A DNA stretch of 64,000 nt from Roseivirga sp. Its GTDB lineage: Bacteria > Bacteroidota > Bacteroidia > Cytophagales > Cyclobacteriaceae. Shown one piece after another: positions 1,143 to 10,459 of the stretch. Positions within the stretch are counted from its first letter, which is position 1. The number at the start of each line of letters is the position of its first letter. Made by a program: the position numbers and the translations under genes. Location of the stretch: assembly GCA_021404565.1 (NCBI GenBank), contig JAAWWF010000016.1, positions 186,001-250,000 of the forward strand, given 5' to 3'. The notes under the pieces are model-generated. The model was not told where the DNA came from and did not search any database. It was given only the letters and a program-made list of their open reading frames with translations.

Positions 1143-2474
1143 CTACTCCACCAATTCATTAATAGCCTGTTCCCACTTCTCAAAATCAAAGTGGGCCATA
1201 TTAGCCGCCATCATAACCTTGATTTCTTCAAGATTGAGCTGACCAATGCTGCCTTCGTGCCCATGATCCACGCTTCGTTCAGGATCAAAGTCTCCTTTCT
1301 CAATAGCCAGACCTATTTGCTTGTAAGCGTCCCGAAATGGCACACCTTGCAAGACCAGTTTATTCGTTTCCTCAACACTGAACAGGTATTTGTATTTATC
1401 CTTCACGATCAGATCTTCGCTGATCCTGACCTTATCCAGCATAAAGTCAGCCATAAACAGGCAGTCTTTCAGGTCTTGAAGGGCCGGAAACAGCACCTCC
1501 TTGATTAGCTGCATTTCCCGGTGATAACCCACGGGAAGATTCGCTGTCATCAGGGCAATATCATTGGGCAAAGCCTGAATCCGGTTGGCCTTGCCGCGCA
1601 TCAGTTCAAACACATCCGGATTCTTTTTATGGGGCATAATGCTTGAGCCTGTTGTCAGCTCATCCGGAAAGGAGATAAAGCCAAAGTCCTGGCCCATGTA
1701 CTGGCACACATCCATGGCAAACTTACCCAGCGTAGCACCGATAGCCGCCATACCCATGGCCAGTGAGCGCTCTGCCTTGCCGCGACCCATCATGGCATAA
1801 ACCACATTGTAGTTCAGGTCTTCGAATCCCAGTAGTTCTGTGGTAAACTTGCGATTGAGCGGAAATGAAGAGCCAAAGCCAGCCCCGGAACCCAGCGGGT
1901 TTTTATTCACTATTTTGTATGCTGCCTGCAGCATGTGCAGGTCATCCACGAGGCTTTCGGCATAGGCACCAAACCATAGACCAAAGGATGAGGGCATGGC
2001 CACCTGCATGTGTGTATAGCCGGGCATCAGCACAGTTTTGTATTGCTCACTCAGTTGGGTCAGTTGATCAAAAAGCACCTGGGTACCCTCAGCAATCTCT
2101 TTGATTTCCTGGCGCATAAAAAGCTTCAGGTCAACCAAAACCTGATCATTCCTGGAGCGACCGCTGTGGATTTTTTTACCTACATCTCCTAATCGCTCAG
2201 TCAGCATCAGTTCAACCTGCGAATGAATGTCTTCCACCCCGTCCCGCATTGAGAACTCGCCCGACACGATATCGCCATAAATAGACTTAAGCTCACGGTG
2301 GATCAGCTCCTTCTCCTCCTGCTCCAGTAAACCTATACTACAGAGCATTTCGGTATGGGCCAGAGAGCCCAACACGTCAAAAGGTGCCAGTTGGATATCA
2401 AACTCCAAATCGCGACCGACCGTATAGCGCTCTACTATATCCGATACTTTTGTTTCTTTTTCCCAGAGTTTCAT
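1143..2474 (-). CDS. argH: Argininosuccinate lyase
   Basis: Last step of arginine synthesis: splits argininosuccinate into arginine and fumarate in the cytoplasm as a homotetramer. The fumarase/aspartase superfamily signature GSSIMPHKKNPD lies at residues 276-287 and carries the catalytic serine loop; GYTHMQVAMP near 152-161 holds the general-acid-region histidine, and SGRSRNDQ near 104-111 is the substrate loop. At 443 residues it is slightly shorter than the E. coli enzyme (about 457). It is the last gene of the minus-strand arg operon and is separated from argE by a repeat-filled gap of 59 bases, the only gap on this side of the operon. Confidence 0.97.
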   Translation of the reverse strand: MKLWEKETKVSDIVERYTVGRDLEFDIQLAPFDVLGSLAHTEMLCSIGLLEQEEKELIHRELKSIYGDIVSGEFSMRDGVEDIHSQVELMLTERLGDVGKKIHSGRSRNDQVLVDLKLFMRQEIKEIAEGTQVLFDQLTQLSEQYKTVLMPGYTHMQVAMPSSFGLWFGAYAESLVDDLHMLQAAYKIVNKNPLGSGAGFGSSFPLNRKFTTELLGFEDLNYNVVYAMMGRGKAERSLAMGMAAIGATLGKFAMDVCQYMGQDFGFISFPDELTTGSSIMPHKKNPDVFELMRGKANRIQALPNDIALMTANLPVGYHREMQLIKEVLFPALQDLKDCLFMADFMLDKVRISEDLIVKDKYKYLFSVEETNKLVLQGVPFRDAYKQIGLAIEKGDFDPERSVDHGHEGSIGQLNLEEIKVMMAANMAHFDFEKWEQAINELVE

Positions 2475-2500: not shown

Positions 2501-2544
2501 AGTCAATAGACAATAGTCGATAGCAGCAATGGACTATCGACTAT
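2501..2544. repeat. Palindromic intergenic repeat at argE-argH junction
   Basis: Two perfect 11-base arms, ATAGTCGATAG at 2513-2523 and CTATCGACTAT at 2534-2544, flank a 10-base loop, with a further degenerate copy of the same 'agtcaatagacaat' theme just upstream. The right arm lies inside the 3' end of argE and supplies its stop codon. This type of 'GACTAT' repeat looks like a dispersed intergenic element; copy number in the genome cannot be seen here. It could form an RNA hairpin between argE and argH and so affect expression of argH. Confidence 0.7.
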
Positions 2545-3595
2545 GAACCATCGTCTCAAGCATTTTTATATACAAATTTACGCCATCCTCAATCTCCTGA
2601 AGCTTGACATATTCATCCGCTGTATGCGAGCGAGCTGAATCACCCGGCCCGAGCTTCACAGAAGCAAAGGGCATCAGCGCCTGATCTGACAAGGTAGGCG
2701 AACCATACGTTTTTCTTCCCAGAGACTTACCGGCTGCTACAATCGGATGATCCTCCCCAATTCCAGAAGGGTTAAGCCGGGTGGACCTGGGAGTCACATC
2801 ACAATCCACATGCTCACGAATGACAGCCAAAGTCTCTTCATTGGTGTAGGCATCCGTAGTCCGTACATCGACTACAAAACTACATTTGTCTGGCACTACA
2901 TTGTGTTGTTTTCCTGCTTCAATCACTGTAACACTCATCTTCACAGGGCCAAGACTTTCAGAAACCCGTGGAAACTCAAAAGACCTAAACCATTCAATAT
3001 GTTGAATAGCATTGTAGATTGCATTTTCGCCTTCGTTACGGGCTGCATGTCCTGCTTTTCCTTGCGCTACACAGTCTAATACCATCAGCCCTTTTTCGGC
3101 AACAGCCAGATGCATTTGGGTCGGTTCGCCAACAATCGCAAAATCAATGTCAGGAAGATGAGGAAGCAGGCTTTCAATCCCCCCTTTACCTGAGATTTCT
3201 TCTTCAGCACTCGCAGCCAACACCAGATTATAGCAGAGATTTTCCTCGGCATAAAAATGAAGAAAGGTCGCTACCAAGGATACCAGACAGCCGCCTGCGT
3301 CATTACTACCCAAACCATAGAGCTTTCCATTTTCCGTAATTGCCGAAAACGGATCTTTGGTGTAGCCTGCATTCGGCTTAACCGTGTCGTGATGTGAATT
3401 GAGTAAGATGGAAGGCAAGTCGGGATCAAAGAACTTGTTCATTGCCCAGATGTTATTCCCTACCCTCTGGCAGTTTACACCTTCAATATTCAGAAATCCC
3501 TCTATAAGGCTGGCCGTTTCCCCCTCCTCTCTACTAAGAGAAGGAGTCTCGATCAGTGTTTTGAGTAGGCCTATCACTTTTTCCGTCAGCTTCAT
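2534..3595 (-). CDS. argE: M20 N-acyl-ornithine deacylase (ArgE type)
   Basis: Zinc-dependent deacylase of the M20 peptidase family that would release ornithine, or citrulline, from its N-acyl form. In Bacteroidetes the acylated citrulline made by ArgF' is the expected substrate. Metal ligands are visible in SHHDTVKP (H68-D70), GSNDAGG (D99) and SAEEEISG (E131-E133), and a C-terminal SARSHTADEYV carries the late histidine ligand. The length, 353 residues, fits the family. Its start overlaps the argB stop by one base (TAATG). The final residues and TAG stop are encoded by one arm of a palindromic repeat, so the C-terminus is probably non-ancestral. Acetyl versus succinyl preference cannot be read from the sequence. 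Confidence 0.9.
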   Translation of the reverse strand: MKLTEKVIGLLKTLIETPSLSREEGETASLIEGFLNIEGVNCQRVGNNIWAMNKFFDPDLPSILLNSHHDTVKPNAGYTKDPFSAITENGKLYGLGSNDAGGCLVSLVATFLHFYAEENLCYNLVLAASAEEEISGKGGIESLLPHLPDIDFAIVGEPTQMHLAVAEKGLMVLDCVAQGKAGHAARNEGENAIYNAIQHIEWFRSFEFPRVSESLGPVKMSVTVIEAGKQHNVVPDKCSFVVDVRTTDAYTNEETLAVIREHVDCDVTPRSTRLNPSGIGEDHPIVAAGKSLGRKTYGSPTLSDQALMPFASVKLGPGDSARSHTADEYVKLQEIEDGVNLYIKMLETMVHSR

Positions 3596-4383
3596 TATAA
3601 AGTAATTACAGTTCCGCTCCCTTTTCCATTCGCCAGTTTTAACACATCAGAAAAGTGCCCGATGGTAACTGTGCTGACTCCGGAACTCAGCGCATCAAAT
3701 GCGTTATCCAGTTTGGGAATCATTCCCTCTTTGATAGTTCCTTTTATTTTTAATTCCTCGTAAGAAAGGGGATTTATCTGAGGGATAACGGTTTGATTCT
3801 CGAAATCACTCAACACTCCTTTCTGTTCAAAGCAATAGATTAACTCAACATCGAATATCCGTGACAAACCACTAGACAAAACACTGGCTATAGTATCAGC
3901 ATTGGTATTAAGAAGACTTCCCAGGCCATCGTGAGTCAGTGGACATAACACAGGTGTCAGGCCCGCCTCCAGAAACATTGACAGTGAGTCAAAATTCACA
4001 AGATCCTCCGAGACATCCCCTACATAGCCATAGTCTATTTCTTTTACAGGTCTTCGTTTGGCAGCAATCACGTTAGCATCAGCACCAGTTAAACCTAAGG
4101 CATTAACTCCCTTAACTTGCAGTTGGGCTACAATCTTCTTATTTATCAAACCGCCATATACCATGGTAACGAGCTCCAGTGTCTGAGCATCGGTGATTCT
4201 GCGACCATCAAAATAGTTTGGTTTGATGCCAAGTTTTTCACCGAAGCCTGAAGCAATCTTACCTCCGCCATGTACCAATACTTTCGACCCCATAATTTTG
4301 GAAAAGTCGGTTAGGAAAGCATCCAGAGCGGCCTGGTCGTCAATTACTTTACCTCCGATTTTTATGATCTTTAGCTGATTCAT
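3595..4383 (-). CDS. argB: N-acetyl(succinyl)glutamate kinase
   Basis: Phosphorylates N-acylglutamate with ATP, the second step of arginine synthesis, as a cytoplasmic amino acid kinase family enzyme. The N-terminal KIGGKVID loop binds phosphate, VHGGGKIASGFGEKLG near residues 38-53 forms the second glycine-rich loop, and a C-terminal IKEGMIPKLDNAFDAL segment is the conserved kinase motif. It has 262 residues, close to the short arginine-insensitive type such as E. coli ArgB (258), and lacks the N-terminal helix of the arginine-inhibited hexameric type, so feedback may act elsewhere. It overlaps argF' by four bases (ATGA) and argE by one, indicating translational coupling. Confidence 0.95.
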   Translation of the reverse strand: MNQLKIIKIGGKVIDDQAALDAFLTDFSKIMGSKVLVHGGGKIASGFGEKLGIKPNYFDGRRITDAQTLELVTMVYGGLINKKIVAQLQVKGVNALGLTGADANVIAAKRRPVKEIDYGYVGDVSEDLVNFDSLSMFLEAGLTPVLCPLTHDGLGSLLNTNADTIASVLSSGLSRIFDVELIYCFEQKGVLSDFENQTVIPQINPLSYEELKIKGTIKEGMIPKLDNAFDALSSGVSTVTIGHFSDVLKLANGKGSGTVITL

Positions 4384-5324
4384 AGTTCCAGAAGTCTTTT
4401 GAAAACGGCCTGAGCAGCATATACCCGGTTTTCCGATTGGTCGAGATGAATGGCATTCGGCCCGTCCAAAACCTCGTCCTTTATCACCAGATTTCTACGC
4501 ACCGGCAGGCAGTGCATTACTTTGGCGTTATTGGTCACAGCCAAATGCTCGTTGCTTAAAGTCCAACTAGTATCCTGATTCAGAATCTTGCCATACTGCT
4601 CGTAAGAAGACCAGTTTTTTACATAAACAAAGTCTGCAGCCTTCAGGGCTTCCAATTGATCATGTATCACAGTCACATCCTGAATGAATTCCGGAGCCAA
4701 ATCATATCCTTCAGGGTTAGTCACCACCAAATCAACATCTGCCTCACGCATCCACTCCACAAAAGAATTCGGAACAGCCTGTGGCAATGCCTTGACATGT
4801 GGCGCCCAGGTCAATACCACCTTGGGCCTTCTACTCTCTTTCCAGTGCTCTTTGATGGTGACTACATCTGCCAGACTTTGCAATGGATGTCGGGTGGCAC
4901 TTTCCAGGCTCACCACAGGAACTCCTGCATGCTCCATAAATGCGGTGAGTAAGGTTTCAGCATAATCACTTTCACGGTCCTTTAATTCAGGAAATGTGCG
5001 TACACCTAACACATCGAAGTAGCGGCCCATTACAGCTGAGGCTTCCCTTATATGTTCCGCCTTATCTCCATCCATGGTCACACCATCTTCAAACTCCAAT
5101 GCCCAACCATCTTTGCCTATATCCAGCACAATCGCCTCGGCTCCCAGGTTCTGAGCGGCCACCTGGCTGCTGAGCCTGGTCCTCAAGCTTGGGTTCAGGA
5201 AAATCAACCCTACCCTCTTGCCAGGGGCCAGTGCGTGTTGATGAGGTTTCTGTTTTAATGCCAGTGCGCTTTGCACCAGCGGGCCGGGCTCCCCGGCATC
5301 TTCCAAAGATGTAAAGTGTTTCAT
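4380..5324 (-). CDS. argF': N-succinylornithine (acetylornithine) carbamoyltransferase
   Basis: Transfers carbamoyl phosphate onto an N-acylated ornithine. It is not an ordinary ornithine carbamoyltransferase: HCLPVRRN at 271-278 and the WAPHVKALPQAVPNSF block match the acylated-ornithine branch, and SLRTRLSS at 46-53 binds carbamoyl phosphate. In the loop reading MDGDKAEH the residue aligned with Pro90 of the Bacteroides fragilis succinyl-ornithine enzyme is alanine (A89). The corresponding residue of the Xanthomonas acetylornithine enzyme is glutamate (Glu92), and replacement of that glutamate by small residues is known to switch specificity to succinylornithine. I therefore infer succinylornithine as substrate. 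It overlaps argD and argB by four bases each. Confidence 0.93.
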   Translation of the reverse strand: MKHFTSLEDAGEPGPLVQSALALKQKPHQHALAPGKRVGLIFLNPSLRTRLSSQVAAQNLGAEAIVLDIGKDGWALEFEDGVTMDGDKAEHIREASAVMGRYFDVLGVRTFPELKDRESDYAETLLTAFMEHAGVPVVSLESATRHPLQSLADVVTIKEHWKESRRPKVVLTWAPHVKALPQAVPNSFVEWMREADVDLVVTNPEGYDLAPEFIQDVTVIHDQLEALKAADFVYVKNWSSYEQYGKILNQDTSWTLSNEHLAVTNNAKVMHCLPVRRNLVIKDEVLDGPNAIHLDQSENRVYAAQAVFKRLLEL

Positions 5325-6448
5325 GGTTCAAGTTCTGTTTTTAAAGCCTCAAAAAACTGATCCAATTCCGCTTTTGTCACAGCCAGTGAGGGAAGTAATC
5401 TTAGTGTATTTTTATTGGCGGCAGAACCTGTAAAGATCTTGTGGTCGAATAATAGTTTCTTTCTTAAGTCCGCAATGGAAAAGTCAAACTCGGCCCCCAG
5501 CATGAGCCCCTGCCCTCTTACCTCCTTGACTTCGGGAATTGCGCTAAGTACATCAGCAGCATACTGCCCCATCTGGGTTGCATTCTGCATTAGCTGTTCT
5601 TCCTGCAGTACCTCCAGCACCGCCATAGAAGCCGCACATGCCAGGTGATTACCACCAAAAGTAGTACCGAGCATACCATGCCAGGACTCAATCTTTGGAG
5701 ATATAAGCACACAGGCCACTGGAAAGCCATTTCCCATGCCCTTCGCCAGCGTGATTATATCCGGTCGGATTGTGGCATGCTGATGAGCAAAGAATTTACC
5801 TGTTCTGCCGGCACCAGACTGTACTTCGTCCAGGATAAATGTTACCCCATGCTCTTCGCAAAGTTCCTGAGCACGATTTAAAAATCTCGCACTTGGCGTA
5901 TAGAGTCCGGCCACTCCCTGGATTCCTTCTACAATAAAGCCAGCAACATCCTCATCAATGGCTATCTCCAAAGCTTCCAGATCGTTCATGGGAATAAACT
6001 CTACCTCATGATCTGCATTAAAAGGAGCTACAATTTTAGGGTTATGCGTAGCTGCAACAGCCCCTGAGGTACGACCATGAAAGGCCTTTTCTACGGCTAT
6101 GATCTTTTTTCTACCAGTATGAAAGGAAGCCAGCTTCAATGCATTTTCATTGGCCTCCGCACCCGTACTGCACAAAAAGAGTTTATAGTCATAGTAACCT
6201 GACATCTGCCCGATTTTCAGGGCCAGCTCACTTTGCAAAGAATTCTCAACCGCATTGGAATAGAAACCAATCTTCTTCAATTGCTCACCGATCCGCTGCA
6301 CATAATGTGGATGGCTATGACCTATAGAAATCACCGCATGTCCTCCGTACAGGTCCAGATACTCCGTTCCTTTTTTATCCCAAAGCTTTGAGCCCAGTGC
6401 TTTCACCGGCTCAATGGGATATAATGGATATACATCAAATAAGTCCAT
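5321..6448 (-). CDS. argD: Acetyl/succinylornithine aminotransferase
   Basis: Class III pyridoxal-phosphate aminotransferase interconverting N-acylglutamate semialdehyde and N-acylornithine with glutamate as amino donor. STGAEANENALKLA near 94-107 binds the cofactor phosphate, LDEVQSGAGRTG around 206-217 holds the conserved Asp207, and ITLAKGMGNG carries the Schiff-base lysine K236. Its 375 residues are a little shorter than E. coli ArgD (406). Start codon overlaps the proC stop by one base (TAATG), and its stop overlaps argF' by four. The family also includes AstC, but the biosynthetic operon context settles the role. Confidence 0.94.
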   Translation of the reverse strand: MDLFDVYPLYPIEPVKALGSKLWDKKGTEYLDLYGGHAVISIGHSHPHYVQRIGEQLKKIGFYSNAVENSLQSELALKIGQMSGYYDYKLFLCSTGAEANENALKLASFHTGRKKIIAVEKAFHGRTSGAVAATHNPKIVAPFNADHEVEFIPMNDLEALEIAIDEDVAGFIVEGIQGVAGLYTPSARFLNRAQELCEEHGVTFILDEVQSGAGRTGKFFAHQHATIRPDIITLAKGMGNGFPVACVLISPKIESWHGMLGTTFGGNHLACAASMAVLEVLQEEQLMQNATQMGQYAADVLSAIPEVKEVRGQGLMLGAEFDFSIADLRKKLLFDHKIFTGSAANKNTLRLLPSLAVTKAELDQFFEALKTELEP

Positions 6449-7257
6449 CAGCTTGTCTTTTTTATATCTTCAATTTTGTTGAAAGAGGTCACCAAACCTT
6501 TAATCAAGGCCGAACTAAGCCCCTGATGTTCCATCTCATTCAAGCCCTCTATTGTACAGCCCTTTGGCGTGGTCACCCGATCAATTTCAGACTCCGGATG
6601 TCCTCCTCCGTTTTGCAGAAGGCTGGCTGCTCCCAGGCAGGTTTGTACTGCCATATGCTGTGCTTCGGGTGCATCAAACCCCAGCTGGATGGCTCCTTGA
6701 GTCGTAGCACGAATCAGCCTCATCCAAAACGCAATACCACTGGCGCAGACTACTGTTGCTGCCTGCATCAGTGACTCTTCAATCACCATCACATCCCCCA
6801 ACGTGGCCAGTATCTCCTTAGCCAGTTCGAGCTTGGTCTCAGCCTTTCTATTACCACTGATACAGGTCATGGATTGACTGACAGCGGATGCTGTATTGGG
6901 CATGCTGCGAATCACGGCAAAATCTTGACCCAAAATGGCTTCGAAGTCAGCTATTTTCTTACCGGTAATCGTAGAGATAATCGTATGCTGACTAGCTTTC
7001 AGGCTCGATTTCAAATCCATTAGCATATCCGTCAGCTGTCCGGGTTGTACAGCAAAAATCACTACATCGGAAGCAGTAACGGCCTTATGGTTATCACTGG
7101 TAACACTTACATTGTTGTAGCCCTCAGACCAGGCTTCGAGGCTTTTCGTATTGCGCTTGGTCAGGTAGAGGGCGTCCACTCCCAGGTTCTCTGCGGCCAG
7201 AATGCCCTTGGCAATAGCCAAACCCAGATTACCCGCTCCTATAATCGATATTTTCAT
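6448..7257 (-). CDS. proC: Pyrroline-5-carboxylate reductase
   Basis: Reduces pyrroline-5-carboxylate to proline with NAD(P)H. The N-terminal Rossmann fold shows IGAGNLGLAIAKGI at residues 5-18, and the C-terminal dimerisation domain contains TTPKGCTIEGLNEME near 229-243, typical of ProC. Length 269 fits the family. It lies inside the arg operon between argC and argD, tightly coupled to argD by a one-base overlap, so proline synthesis is co-transcribed with arginine synthesis. Because pyrroline-5-carboxylate also forms from ornithine by transamination, the position could provide an ornithine-to-proline route, but that is inference. Confidence 0.93.
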   Translation of the reverse strand: MKISIIGAGNLGLAIAKGILAAENLGVDALYLTKRNTKSLEAWSEGYNNVSVTSDNHKAVTASDVVIFAVQPGQLTDMLMDLKSSLKASQHTIISTITGKKIADFEAILGQDFAVIRSMPNTASAVSQSMTCISGNRKAETKLELAKEILATLGDVMVIEESLMQAATVVCASGIAFWMRLIRATTQGAIQLGFDAPEAQHMAVQTCLGAASLLQNGGGHPESEIDRVTTPKGCTIEGLNEMEHQGLSSALIKGLVTSFNKIEDIKKTS

Positions 7258-7371: not shown

Positions 7372-8325
7372 TCAAAAAGCTGAACCCTTAAGCTTCAGGC
7401 CGGTTGTTTCCTCCAGTCCGAACATCAGATTCAGATTTTGTACTGCTTGCCCCGAAGCTCCTTTCAATAGATTATCTATGACCGATTGGATCATCAGATA
7501 ACCATTATGTAGTGTCAGGTTGACATAGCACTTATTCGTATTCACTACCTGCTTCACATCCAGGGGTGAATCGCTTACCCAAGTAAAGGGATGTTCTTCG
7601 TAGTACTCCTTGTATACTCTGATCGCTTCTTCCAAAGGCCACTCGATATACTGATAAGCCGTGATGAGAATGCCACGTGTAAAGTTGCCTCTGTAGGGAA
7701 TGAAATTAATGGGCTGCTCAAACCATGGCTGGTACTGCATCAGGCTTTGCGTTACTTCAGCAAGGTGCTGATGTTCGAATGCCTTATAGGTAGACATATT
7801 ACCCTCTCGCCAGCTAAAATGCGTAGTTGAAGAAGGTTTTACTCCCGCGCCTGTAGAACCGGTAATACCCGATACATGCACTTCTTTCAGAGCCCCATTA
7901 TGTGCCAATGGCAAAAGTGCCAGTTGTATGGCAGTAGCAAAACAACCCGGATTGGCTACAAAACCGGTCCCTTTGATAGTGTCTCGATTGAGCTCCGGCA
8001 GACCATATACTTTATCCCCATCTAGTCGAAAATCCTGGCTCAGGTCAATTACTTTAATCTGAGAAGGCAGCTCATTTTGCTTAAGGAACTCGGATGAAGC
8101 TCCATGTCCCATACAGAGAAAGAGCACATCGATATCGAAGTTGATTTCGCCAGAAAAATTGAGCGTTGTCTCTCCCAAAAGATCGGGGTGTGCACTGTGA
8201 ACTGGCTTATCTGCTTGGCTGCGACTTTGTACAAAGGCAATTTCTACCGCAGGATGATTCAGGAGCAATCGAATAAGTTCGCCTCCTGTATAACCTGCCC
8301 CACCTATAATTCCTGCTCTAATCAT
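7372..8325 (-). CDS. argC: N-acyl-gamma-glutamyl-phosphate reductase
   Basis: NADPH-dependent reduction of N-acylglutamyl phosphate to the semialdehyde, third step of arginine synthesis. The Rossmann motif GIIGGAGYTGGELIRLL is at residues 5-21 and the catalytic cysteine C128 lies in VANPGCFATA. The length (317 residues) matches the shorter type of ArgC. The ATG overlaps the argG stop by four bases. The downstream neighbour proC follows only after an 81-base palindrome. Confidence 0.95.
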   Translation of the reverse strand: MIRAGIIGGAGYTGGELIRLLLNHPAVEIAFVQSRSQADKPVHSAHPDLLGETTLNFSGEINFDIDVLFLCMGHGASSEFLKQNELPSQIKVIDLSQDFRLDGDKVYGLPELNRDTIKGTGFVANPGCFATAIQLALLPLAHNGALKEVHVSGITGSTGAGVKPSSTTHFSWREGNMSTYKAFEHQHLAEVTQSLMQYQPWFEQPINFIPYRGNFTRGILITAYQYIEWPLEEAIRVYKEYYEEHPFTWVSDSPLDVKQVVNTNKCYVNLTLHNGYLMIQSVIDNLLKGASGQAVQNLNLMFGLEETTGLKLKGSAF

Positions 8326-9518
8326 GACTCTCCGTTTACCTGGTGATAAATGGCATTCTGGTTACCAAAGATCTTAGCAAAACCCTTGACATCATCTCCC
8401 GTCCAGGCATTGTTCATTTCTCCGTAATGTCCGAATTTGGCTGACATCAGATCATGATCCGATTCTATTCCGTTGACCTGAAAACGATAGGGAAGCAGGG
8501 TAATGAATACCTTTCCGGTCACATGCTTCTGTGTGTTGTCCATCATGGTTTCCATATCCCGCATGACAGGATCCATAAACTGACCTTCGTGCAGCCAGTT
8601 ACCATAAAAAGAAGCTATCTGATCTTTCCAGTAAATCTGCCACTTGGTGAGTACATGCTTTTCAAGTGCCTGATGCGCCTTGATGGTGAGCATAGAAGCA
8701 GCAGCCTCAAAACCAACACGGCCTTTAATCCCTATGATGGTGTCACCCACATGGATATCACGACCGATACCAAAGGGGCCGGCAAGCTTTTCAAGGAATT
8801 GAATCGCTTCATATGACGCCCCAAACTCCTTATCATTTACGGACTTCAGCTCGCCTTCGACAAAACCCAGCTCCAGCGACTCTGGCTGCTCTTTGGTCAC
8901 CTGGGTTGGGAAAGCCTCTTCCGGTAGATATCCATGAGAGCTCAATGTTTCTTTACCTCCTACTGAGGTACCCCAAAGCCCCTTGTTAATGGAGTAGGCC
9001 GCTTTGGCAAAGTCCATTTCCACACCTTTCGACTTAAGGTATTCGATTTCCTCCTCACGCGATAGCTTTAAATCGCGAATAGGCGTGATGATTTCCGCTT
9101 CTGGCAGGAATGTCTGAAAAATCATATCAAAGCGTACCTGATCGTTTCCGGCTCCCGTGCTACCATGTGCGATGTAGTCGGCATTCAGGGTTTTGGCATG
9201 CTTGGCAATGGCCATTGCCTGGCTCACACGTTCGGCACTGACAGAGAGTGGATAGGTGCTGTTCTTAAGGATATTTCCAAAAACCAGATACTTAATTACA
9301 CTCTCATAATAGTTAGCCGTTTCTTCAATCGTGGTATGAGAAGTCACACCCAATTCATAGGCCCTTTTTTCAACACCAACCAACTCTTCTTTTTCAAAAC
9401 CACCAGTGTTTACCAGTACGGAATGCACTTCCAGTCCTTTTTCTTCGGTGAGATATTTCACGCAGTACGAGGTATCAAGACCACCGCTATAAGCGAGTAC
9501 TACTTTTTTATTTGCCAT
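8322..9518 (-). CDS. argG: Argininosuccinate synthase
   Basis: Condenses citrulline and aspartate using ATP. The start MANKKVVLAYSGGLDTSYC gives the PP-loop SGGLDTS at residues 10-16 near the N-terminus, as expected; an upstream in-frame ATG at 9575 would add 19 low-complexity residues inside the preceding gene, so 9518 is preferred. STGAGNDQVRFD holds the citrulline/aspartate binding residues. The protein has 398 residues, close to the usual 400. Its start lies 11 bases inside the GNAT gene, so the two are translationally coupled. In the Bacteroidetes pathway the citrulline substrate appears after ArgE removes the acyl group. Confidence 0.96.
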   Translation of the reverse strand: MANKKVVLAYSGGLDTSYCVKYLTEEKGLEVHSVLVNTGGFEKEELVGVEKRAYELGVTSHTTIEETANYYESVIKYLVFGNILKNSTYPLSVSAERVSQAMAIAKHAKTLNADYIAHGSTGAGNDQVRFDMIFQTFLPEAEIITPIRDLKLSREEEIEYLKSKGVEMDFAKAAYSINKGLWGTSVGGKETLSSHGYLPEEAFPTQVTKEQPESLELGFVEGELKSVNDKEFGASYEAIQFLEKLAGPFGIGRDIHVGDTIIGIKGRVGFEAAASMLTIKAHQALEKHVLTKWQIYWKDQIASFYGNWLHEGQFMDPVMRDMETMMDNTQKHVTGKVFITLLPYRFQVNGIESDHDLMSAKFGHYGEMNNAWTGDDVKGFAKIFGNQNAIYHQVNGES

Positions 9519-10179
9519 TGTTTTTGTCTTTTCTTTTAAGCAGAATGGTTTTCTTAAATTTAAGCCACCGTTCAAAAAGCTTTAAATCTTTATCGAGCTC
9601 ACGCTGTTTCCATTGAGTACGCTTAGGGCTTTGATTCTTCTCCCAGGCAGGGTTATAGAGCATGGCTGTACAAATACAATTCTGACGCTTTTTGGCCGTC
9701 AGGATATCGAAATTCACACAGCTCTTGCAACCACTCCAGAATTGTTCGTCTTGGGTGAGCTCAGCGTATACCACAGGCTTATAGCCCAGCTCTGAGTTAA
9801 TTTTGAGTACGGCCGCTCCGGTTGTTAATCCAAAAATTTTGGCAGCCGGATATTTTTTCCCGGACAGGTTAAAAGTGGCCTCCTTGATTTGCTTGGCGAG
9901 TCCGTGGCCCCGAAAATTCTGAGAGACAATCAGGCCTGAGTTAGCTACAAACTGTCCATGGCTCCATACCTCTATGTAGCAGAAACCAGCCCACTGGCCA
10001 TCTTTGGTGGTAGCTATAATCGCTTTTCCCTCCGCCATTTTTCCAGCGACATAGTCAGGAGTGCGCTTGGCAATGCCGGTACCACGTATTTTCGCGGAAT
10101 TGGCAATCTCCTCAACGATCACCTCTGCATAGTGCGTGTCTGCGGCAGTTGCCTCTTTGATAATGAATTGTGATTTCAT
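9508..10179 (-). CDS. GNAT acyltransferase, candidate first enzyme of arginine synthesis
   Basis: A GNAT-fold acyltransferase of 223 residues: the acyl-CoA pyrophosphate loop is QNFRGHGLAK at 87-96, followed by the helix and the FGLTTG strand. A C-terminal extension contains C151-x-x-C154 and C168-x-C170, a possible metal site, then a basic tail rich in lysine. It is the first gene of a complete arg operon that lacks any recognisable argA or argJ, and it overlaps argG by 11 bases. I infer that it makes N-acetyl- or N-succinylglutamate from glutamate and acyl-CoA; succinyl-CoA would fit the carbamoyltransferase. It is not homologous by eye to the kinase-fused ArgA of E. coli. Fold is clear, substrate is inference. 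Confidence 0.8.
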   Translation of the reverse strand: MKSQFIIKEATAADTHYAEVIVEEIANSAKIRGTGIAKRTPDYVAGKMAEGKAIIATTKDGQWAGFCYIEVWSHGQFVANSGLIVSQNFRGHGLAKQIKEATFNLSGKKYPAAKIFGLTTGAAVLKINSELGYKPVVYAELTQDEQFWSGCKSCVNFDILTAKKRQNCICTAMLYNPAWEKNQSPKRTQWKQRELDKDLKLFERWLKFKKTILLKRKDKNNGK

Positions 10180-10190
10180 TGTTCTCTCAT

Positions 10191-10248
10191 GTCATTGCGA
10201 GCGTAGCGCGGCAATCTTTAAATGATTGACGAAACAACGTACAATGAC
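10191..10248. repeat. 58-base element with GTCATTG/CAATGAC ends
   Basis: GTCATTG at 10191-10197 and CAATGAC at 10242-10248 form terminal inverted repeats around a core containing GCGAGCGTAGCGCGGCAATC. The core word is of the dispersed palindromic type found in many bacterial genomes. It sits in the untranslated leader of the arg operon, only 12 bases upstream of the first structural gene, so it is part of the mRNA if the promoter at 10430 is used. It may be a small non-autonomous mobile element. Confidence 0.6.
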
Positions 10249-10294
10249 GCCTTTTTAAAATTCTTGAATTAAACCAATACAGTTTTCGGGGAGT

Positions 10295-10338
10295 GACCAC
10301 CACGTAGGCGGTCGGGATATAGTAAGGCGCTAGCGCCT
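10295..10338 (-). promoter_or_regulatory. Possible attenuator structures in arg operon leader
   Basis: Directly after the leader ORF two structures follow on the minus strand: a perfect 14-base palindrome AGGCGCTAGCGCCT at 10325-10338, which contains the leader stop codon in its centre, and a 7-base-pair hairpin GACCGCC/GGTGGTC (one G-U pair, 5-base loop) at 10295-10313. Such stems next to a leader ORF are the usual arrangement for ribosome-controlled attenuation. There is no good U-run directly after the hairpin, so a simple intrinsic terminator is not evident and the mechanism remains open. Confidence 0.4.
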
Positions 10339-10413
10339 GGGCCTGAATACAACAGCTACTGCAGCCACGGGACGAGGCTGTACAGAAAAGAAATATGTAG
10401 TGTTGCTACTCAT
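10330..10413 (-). CDS. Putative arg operon leader peptide
   Basis: A 27-codon ORF (ATG at 10413, TAG ending at 10330) begins about 17 bases downstream of a promoter-like sequence and 150 bases upstream of the first arg operon gene. The peptide starts MSSNTTYFFS and ends VVFRPRR; arginine occurs at residues 14, 24, 26 and 27, the last two directly before the stop, and the middle is rich in valine and alanine (V16-A-A-V-A-V-V). Position at the extreme 5' end of the transcript, small size and a stop codon inside a palindrome suggest a leader peptide sensing charged tRNA, plausibly arginine. The valine-rich stretch leaves another amino acid possible. It is too short for ordinary gene calling. Confidence 0.5.
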   Translation of the reverse strand: MSSNTTYFFSVQPRPVAAVAVVFRPRR

Positions 10414-10429
10414 TGTTCTATTGAGACGA

Positions 10430-10459
10430 CAAAGGAAATAAAAAGTTTAGAAGGGACAA
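10430..10459 (-). promoter_or_regulatory. Promoter of arg operon
   Basis: On the minus strand TTG (10459-10457) is followed after exactly 19 bases by TTCCTTTG (10437-10430). This fits the Bacteroidetes TTTG-N19-TAnnTTTG pattern with the TA reading TT. Transcription would start near 10424, about 10 bases before the leader ORF. Confidence 0.5.

Follow-up and report, generated by a model that had tools for sequence, protein, structure and literature searches.

An arginine leader-peptide control element very probably lies before the arginine operon in a 64,000-nucleotide stretch of a Roseivirga sp. genome (hereafter the window), as judged by comparison with related genomes. With a good deal less assurance, we favor the reading that it is an arginine-responsive leader-peptide attenuator, with premature and probably Rho-dependent termination. 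A short ORF rich in codons for the product of the operon lies behind a promoter, and conserved stems lie at and after the control codons. All the elements are read from the minus strand and precede a cluster of nine genes in the order GNAT-argG-argC-proC-argD-argF'-argB-argE-argH. Features are as follows.

10430..10459, minus strand: promoter, presumably of the Bacteroidota type, comprising TTG (10459-10457), N19 and TTCCTTTG (10437-10430), read from the sequence
10330..10413, minus strand: leader ORF of 27 codons, MSSNTTYFFSVQPRPVAAVAVVFRPRR, read from the sequence; Arg-tailed ORFs in relatives
10325..10338, minus strand: HP1, perfect 14-base palindrome AGGCGCTAGCGCCT, with the leader stop in the loop
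10314..10324, minus strand: HP1-HP2 spacer, rich in A/T among relatives (48% T and 31% A over 83 loci)
10295..10313, minus strand: HP2, GACCGCCTACGTGGTGGTC, 7-bp stem with a UACGU loop; covariation, and a covariance-model hit of 1.1e-7 in its own genome
10180..10294, minus strand: untranslated gap from HP2 to GNAT, rich in C and poor in G among relatives but not in the window
9508..10179, minus strand: GNAT-type acetyltransferase, first gene of the operon; best matches all below curated cut-offs, orthologues in relatives
8322..9518, minus strand: argG, best matches below cut-offs
7372..8325, minus strand: argC, over cut-off
6448..7257, minus strand: proC, over cut-off
5321..6448, minus strand: argD, best match below cut-off
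4380..5324, minus strand: argF' (N-acetylornithine carbamoyltransferase), over cut-off
3595..4383, minus strand: argB, over cut-off
2534..3595, minus strand: argE-like deacylase, below cut-offs
1143..2474, minus strand: argH, over cut-off

The leader ORF and its promoter

The original prediction, made from the window alone, was of a promoter followed by a 27-codon ORF ending Arg-Pro-Arg-Arg-stop, with the stop inside a perfect palindrome, a second hairpin right after it and the complete arg operon beyond on the same strand. All of these were found at the positions listed above, and the nine genes of the cluster are named by their matches, some below the cut-offs. One detail has changed; the distance from TTCCTTTG to the ATG at 10413 is 16 bases, not 17. 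The ORF ends Arg(AGG)-Pro(CCC)-Arg(AGG)-Arg(CGC)-TAG, giving the peptide tail FRPRR. The assignment of the promoter uses a consensus that we take to be that of the Bacteroidota.

Of 148 genomes in the family, 135 have an orthologue of the GNAT gene (137 matches). The nearest named relatives are Roseivirga species, in the order Cytophagales, and other members of the family correspond to genera of the Cyclobacteriaceae. We used the upstream regions of 130 of the 137 matches, leaving out the last seven on the list. An ORF was scored as Arg-tailed if it had at least three Arg in its last 10 residues and ended 35–260 bases before GNAT. Such ORFs occur in 92/130 regions compared with 4.6% of 5200 shuffled sequences, and those with at least four Arg in 49/130 compared with 0.6%. 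In 54/130 regions an Arg-tailed ORF has a UAYGN hairpin, with a stem of 6 bp or more, no further than 75 bases behind it, against 0.04% of the 5200 shuffles. The ORF and the arrangement of its stop and hairpin are thus kept in relatives, the absence of which had been set beforehand as grounds for rejecting the prediction.

To avoid choosing ORFs for their arginines, we also picked them by the position of HP2. In 58 loci where a hairpin with a [CT]A[CT]G loop had a stem of 6 bp or more we took the longest ORF with its stop 2–45 bases before the hairpin, which gave an ORF in 56 of them. Arg is by far the most enriched residue in the tails of these ORFs, making up 26.8% of the last ten residues compared with 3.1% of the body. 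Pro is second (11.3% against 6.1%), while Val (7.1% against 5.3%) and Ala (7.0% against 8.6%) have no clear enrichment. AGG accounts for 122 of the 150 tail Arg codons, compared with 121 of 637 in 32 long ORFs of the window. The original prediction had held that a valine/alanine stretch in the leader left the sensed amino acid uncertain. Some other leaders of the genus do have such a stretch, and that of the window is paired with the beginning of the ORF when the RNA is folded by prediction, but overall it is arginine that stands out in the tails.

The sequence of the tail differs widely between clades (FRPRR, RRPLGV, TRRPRPARFARI and PIPRRR are examples), with mainly Arg, and often Pro, in common. 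One clade with tails resembling RRFRNSFRA keeps whole residues. In 25 leaders of this clade pN/pS is 0.43 over the 14 codons before HP1, with variation mostly in the third position, the pairs compared being phylogenetically non-independent.

The presence of proC in the operon raised proline as a possible second signal. This was rejected, since Pro and proC are not associated over the named loci; in 69 of these where five or more operon genes were seen, Pro occurs in the last 8 leader residues of 23/30 loci with proC and 29/39 without. Among Roseivirga-like leaders the tail is PRR where proC is in the operon (the window, L215 and L217), and QDRR or FFRR in the loci whose operon showed no proC (L214, L216 and L219-L221), a pairing that may be explained by common descent.

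The promoter pattern recurs. The sequence TTG-N17..21-NNNNTTTG lies no more than 70 bases before the leader start in 52/83 loci, compared with 9.2% of shuffles; the strict form TAnnTTTG is rare (4/83). These 83 of the 130 loci have a UAYG-type HP2 with a stem of 5 bp or more, and are the basis of the composition and promoter counts given throughout.

Two hairpins and the gap before GNAT

In the window the TAG stop (10332-10330) lies in the loop of HP1, and the last two Arg codons are contained in its 5' arm. In the clear cases among relatives HP1 is also at the end of the ORF, usually opening with an AGG codon, and the stop codon is in the loop or a few codons past it. Hairpins at the stop score 12 or more in 59/83 loci, compared with 19.7% of shuffles and 17.5% of windows placed further up the leader. 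The minimum-free-energy fold of the window sequence includes both HP1 and HP2 (z = −2.10), and 7 of 200 shuffled sequences fold as well or better.

Covariation was analyzed in two disjoint sets of loci, of 35 and 18 (the latter with another HP1), hand-picked for similar layout from 68 that passed a filter; 15 more were skipped. Over the 35 loci 92.2% of the HP2 cells are paired and 6 of its 7 pairs have changed on both sides; for HP1 the figures are 77.1% and 2 of 5. The covariation score for the two hairpins together is 0.491, compared with 0.214 in shuffled alignments (none of 500 as high) and no more than 0.144 when the pairing is slid. For the 18 loci the corresponding values are 0.544, 0.184 (none of 500 as high) and no more than 0.131, with changes on both sides at 7/7 pairs of HP2 and 0/6 of HP1. 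A covariance model was given 99 of the 130 loci, 35 of which were its training loci, and it matched 69. The model-fitted alignment of these 69 agrees with the result, although such an alignment leans towards the model. The case rests on the scores, the paired cells and the slid controls, because the count of pairs changed on both sides is not clearly above that of the shuffles (50, 309 and 17 of 500 were as high for the 35-, 18- and 69-locus sets). HP1 exhibits little covariation because its 5' arm is coding. From these comparisons HP2 is under selection in the relatives. The alignment of relatives that had been proposed as a check, looking for a conserved Arg-ended ORF with covarying stems, therefore finds the Arg tail, the stop hairpin and HP2 recurring, with covariation in HP2.

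The loop of HP2 is kept while its stem varies. It is UACG in 59/83 loci and UAUG in 21/83, partly by construction as the search pattern required a [CT]A[CT]G loop. When 40 loci were chosen by the peptide tail alone, 39 had a loop of this kind (judged by eye in the alignments, the exception being L025). Among 86 loci in which the ORF was followed by any hairpin of 6 bp or longer, 45 had a [CT]A[CT]G-type loop, most commonly UACGU (19) and UACGC (11), the choice of ORF leaning on the earlier hairpin layouts. There are also leader classes that lack a UAYG-type HP2, such as the TRRPRPxRFxRI leaders, and other clades have other hairpins.

A search of Rfam 15 gave no match at the gathering score in the window or in the loci of 14 relatives, and a single, chance-level match at E 10. 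Three further roles for the RNA were considered and set aside. The first was that the HP2 loop forms half of a pseudoknot. CGTA, complementary to a UACG loop, is no commoner in the 5' part of loci with that loop (5/59) than of those with a UAUG loop (4/21); it is somewhat commoner in the rest of the leader (12/59 against 2/21) and in the gap (11/59 against 0/21), at no fixed place in either. The second was that HP2 mimics the anticodon arm of tRNA-Arg(ACG), which we rejected because 21/83 loops are UAUG. The third was a three-segment switch (CAUAGC near the start, GCUAUG in mid-leader and AAUAGC after HP2), which was seen in one clade, with a weak signal overall. Alternative pairing of the 5' leader with mid-leader (mean z −0.50 ± 0.16) and of the 5' arm of HP1 with that of HP2 (−0.48 ± 0.11) is similarly weak.

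There is no terminator-like site (a GC hairpin with a U-tract) before the first gene in the window, in keeping with the original observation that no U-run follows the hairpin. U-runs were found after HP1 in 4/83 loci and after HP2 in none of the 83, and intrinsic terminators are therefore not the rule. The start of GNAT is 115 bases beyond HP2 in the window, and at a mean of ∼78 bases over the 83 loci (73.5 to ATG-5). Rho loading sites are expected to be C-rich and G-poor. The C/G ratio of the gap is 1.99 over the 83 loci, with C exceeding G in 82 of them, compared with a ratio of 1.02 before 116 control genes. This composition suggests the involvement of Rho, although the window itself, with 22 C and 21 G, has hardly any skew. 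Rho is present in all 29 relatives searched, which include the window's own genome. A REP-like imperfect palindrome (CATTGCGAGCGTAGCGCGGCAATC...) occupies 10192-10249, between HP2 and GNAT; it occurs as a single copy in the window, with weak partial matches at two other places in the genome. This palindrome may account for the lack of C-skew in the gap.

Histidine operons, ArgR and wider occurrence

A similar layout is found before another operon. All 19 hisG loci of the genus (L302-L320) have a short ORF ending in His codons, including that of the window's own genome (L312), where the tail is HHVHNFHHLS; relatives have HAHHFHHLS and similar tails. In the 18 loci that were laid out, a hairpin over the stop (AUCUCUC..GAGAGAU and similar) is followed by a second hairpin, and in 9 of them this is like GGCCUACGCGG, with the same UACG loop as the HP2 of the arg leaders. 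The arg covariance model matches 8 of the 18 his leaders at E ≤ 0.013; it also gave one false hit (E 0.0043) elsewhere in L312. The his leader of the window's own genome has a different HP2 loop, and was missed by the arg model. Downstream of the his leader the C/G ratio is 2.2. Since the layout is common to the his operon it is not peculiar to arginine. The ribosome-mediated attenuation geometry originally proposed is thus kept in its Arg-tailed ORF, stop hairpin, HP2 and promoter, but it is neither arginine-specific nor that of classical attenuation with an intrinsic terminator.

The regions upstream of pheA and ilvD had no consistent leader, but these genes are perhaps internal to their operons, and two of the loci (L337 and L349) are cut by a contig end and misplaced. 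Ile/Val-rich short ORFs end 278 bases before an ilvD match in the same genus (MKQLTVIISVIIISPSG, L352) and 139 bases before one in the same order (MFANIIVVVVVILCTQTV, L365). They are possible branched-chain leaders.

Many bacterial arginine operons are controlled by ArgR. In the family, none of 148 genomes has a match to ArgR (TIGR01529) over the cut-off; there is one weak partial match, and none in the window's own genome. In a sample of 247 genomes of the phylum, 93 have a match at E ≤ 0.001 (25 over the cut-off) and 103 have the GNAT gene. The two occur together in four of the 93 ArgR-matching genomes (G440, G462, G631 and G639, the first two weak), so that 99/103 GNAT-bearing genomes have no ArgR match. 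In the family of G631 and G639 (f30) the ArgR gene is directly upstream of GNAT, where other families carry the leader, and no Arg leader was seen at the one such locus read (G639, L197). Several families have the GNAT gene with neither an ArgR match nor a visible leader. From this distribution the leader and ArgR look to be alternatives to each other, the correlation being over few lineages.

In the window's own genome the covariance model of HP1 and HP2 has one significant hit, the arg leader, with the next at 0.096. Across the order 55/291 genomes have a hit at E ≤ 0.01. Thirty of these hits were made into loci, including the window's own and several from training genomes; every one of them is followed by GNAT-argG, and six come from other families (f13 and f16). 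In the phylum sample 40 upstream regions were read, using the same definition of an Arg tail. Arg-tailed ORFs were found in 3/4 regions from family f23, 5/5 from f24, 5/8 from f26, 3/3 from f27, 3/3 from f42, 1/3 from f43 and 1/1 from f58, and in 0/13 from f11, f13, f25, f30, f41, f44, f46, f48, f56 and f60 together. Those of f43 and f58, and two of the f26 cases, may be due to chance, since in all of these the ORF scored ends 254–260 bases upstream. In all 79 named loci that had upstream sequence there is an ORF with two or more Arg in its last 14 residues, and 49 of them, Chitinophaga included, have three or more. The tails of Pedobacter, often NFTPRI, have two Arg only. Clades such as Chitinophaga and Pedobacter have other hairpins at the stop. 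In f26 (L190-L193) Arg leaders have a stop hairpin such as CCCGTAAGGG, together with another repeated core of the second hairpin, TAGGTGAGTCC, a second type of HP2.

Proposed mechanism and alternatives

In the attenuator that we favor, transcription would start just upstream of 10413 and a ribosome would translate the 27-codon leader. When charged tRNA-Arg is scarce (in the relatives mostly that reading AGG), the ribosome would stall on the last Arg codons. As these lie in the 5' arm of HP1, the hairpin would be held open and the RNA behind the stop shielded, and transcription would continue into GNAT-argG. If arginine is plentiful the ribosome would reach the stop and leave. HP1 and HP2 would then fold, and transcription would end ahead of GNAT, within the untranslated gap, with Rho as the most likely agent. 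We infer the translation, the stalling, the polarity of the switch and the Rho step. For the ORF, its Arg codons, HP1, HP2, the position of the promoter, the lack of a usual intrinsic terminator and the failure to find ArgR, the comparison of related loci provides the support. The role of the HP2 loop falls outside this model.

The classical his, trp and leu attenuators have a leader ORF rich in codons for the product of the operon, followed by hairpins, before biosynthetic genes. The arg leader shares this plan, but its control codons run into the stop, which is in or beside HP1, it has a UAYG loop in HP2 and as a rule it has no U-run terminator. In Escherichia coli tnaC the end of the leader is beside an exposed Rho-loading region, the start of which is covered by the stalled ribosome, and the TnaC arrest peptide senses free tryptophan. 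The position of the ORF end next to a Rho-loading region is the likeness with the arg leaders. With control codons at the very end of the ORF, a stalled ribosome would cover the start of the gap. In Salmonella, too, translation of the orf34 leader of speF interferes with Rho termination (PMC6386406). The arg leaders differ from TnaC in having Arg codons in common in place of an arrest peptide.

Leader-peptide attenuation before amino-acid operons has been suggested in Bacteroidota. Clues for it were reported in Flavobacterium psychrophilum, with hisG and pheA among the conserved 5' elements (PMC9723704); section 19 of that report names no arginine operon, though its Table S7 may list arg. Long 5' UTRs in Bacteroides thetaiotaomicron contain short ORFs reminiscent of leader peptides (PMC7366714). 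A search for attenuators by means of Rho-independent terminators (PMC2965389) has, in the main text as available, none of the terms Bacteroid-, arginine or argG. No arginine leader peptide before arg genes in Bacteroidota was found in open-licence titles and the starts of abstracts, among the matches listed, and to that extent the original statement that such control has not been described holds. The kind of control is known; its use for arg in Bacteroidota, the stop-at-hairpin layout with a UAYG loop and the sharing with his look to be new.

An alternative that we consider unlikely keeps the arginine-sensing leader but places its effect after transcription, such that stalling or completion alters the fold and so changes mRNA decay or the initiation of translation at GNAT-argG. 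It would agree with the general absence of an intrinsic terminator and of a clear C-rich gap in the window, and there are precedents. In Salmonella, arginine controls the stability of speF mRNA via orf34 and the position of its stop (PMC6386406). Like the arg leader, orf34 is a short ORF with Arg codons that responds to arginine and in which the stop position matters. It differs in being enterobacterial, in having two consecutive Arg codons in a conserved domain, in also sequestering the speF ribosome site, and in its target, which is ornithine decarboxylase and not arginine synthesis (PMC6386406). In Staphylococcus aureus the rbfL leader likewise senses arginine shortage through AGA/AGG codons, at which the ribosome pauses and a downstream ribosome site is blocked; unlike the arg leader it is repressive, acting on a biofilm regulator and not a biosynthetic operon (PMC13009471). 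Against this alternative, GNAT at 115 bases from HP2 (mean ∼78 over 83 loci) is too far away for direct occlusion by a ribosome, and the leader pairs weakly with the sequence ahead of GNAT (mean z −0.24 ± 0.12 and −0.17 ± 0.11).

It is improbable that the element works by classical attenuation, in which one of the hairpins is an intrinsic terminator whose U-tract has degenerated in this lineage. The T-rich spacer after HP1 and the four loci with a U-run there are what this would leave, but no locus of the 83, and not the window, has one after HP2, and a ribosome arriving at the stop codon covers HP1. Less probable by some way is an arrest peptide, in which the nascent tail would itself bind free arginine and stall on or close to the stop, as TnaC does with tryptophan, high arginine being the signal. 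The placing of the Arg codons at the very end of the ORF and the retention of whole residues in the RRFRNSFRA clade (pN/pS 0.43) would suit it. However, the tails of different clades have mainly Arg and often Pro in common, the bias to AGG fits decoding and not recognition of a peptide, and induction by plentiful arginine has the wrong sign for a biosynthetic operon. We give scarcely any credence to the idea that the ORF is there by chance and the structured RNA alone matters, as a riboswitch or protein site; a kept loop on a varying stem is typical of a recognised element, but the Arg enrichment, the codon bias, the third-position variation, the replacement of Arg by His before hisG and the lack of an Rfam match all argue against it.

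The arginine-responsive attenuator would provide codon-based sensing of arginine to a family with no ArgR found, alongside a matching histidine sensor at the his operon. We offer more tentatively the possibility of an attenuation module used across the Bacteroidota, at least for arginine and histidine operons. In this module control codons would run into a stop held in HP1, a UAYG-loop HP2 would be recognised by a trans-acting partner (protein, ribosome or polymerase), and termination would be of the Rho type without an intrinsic terminator, standing in for ArgR at arg. If this is correct it would be a general scheme for the phylum, one overlooked by terminator-based genome scans because it has no U-run. 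The kept loop of HP2 raises the question of its binding partner, which is directly testable.
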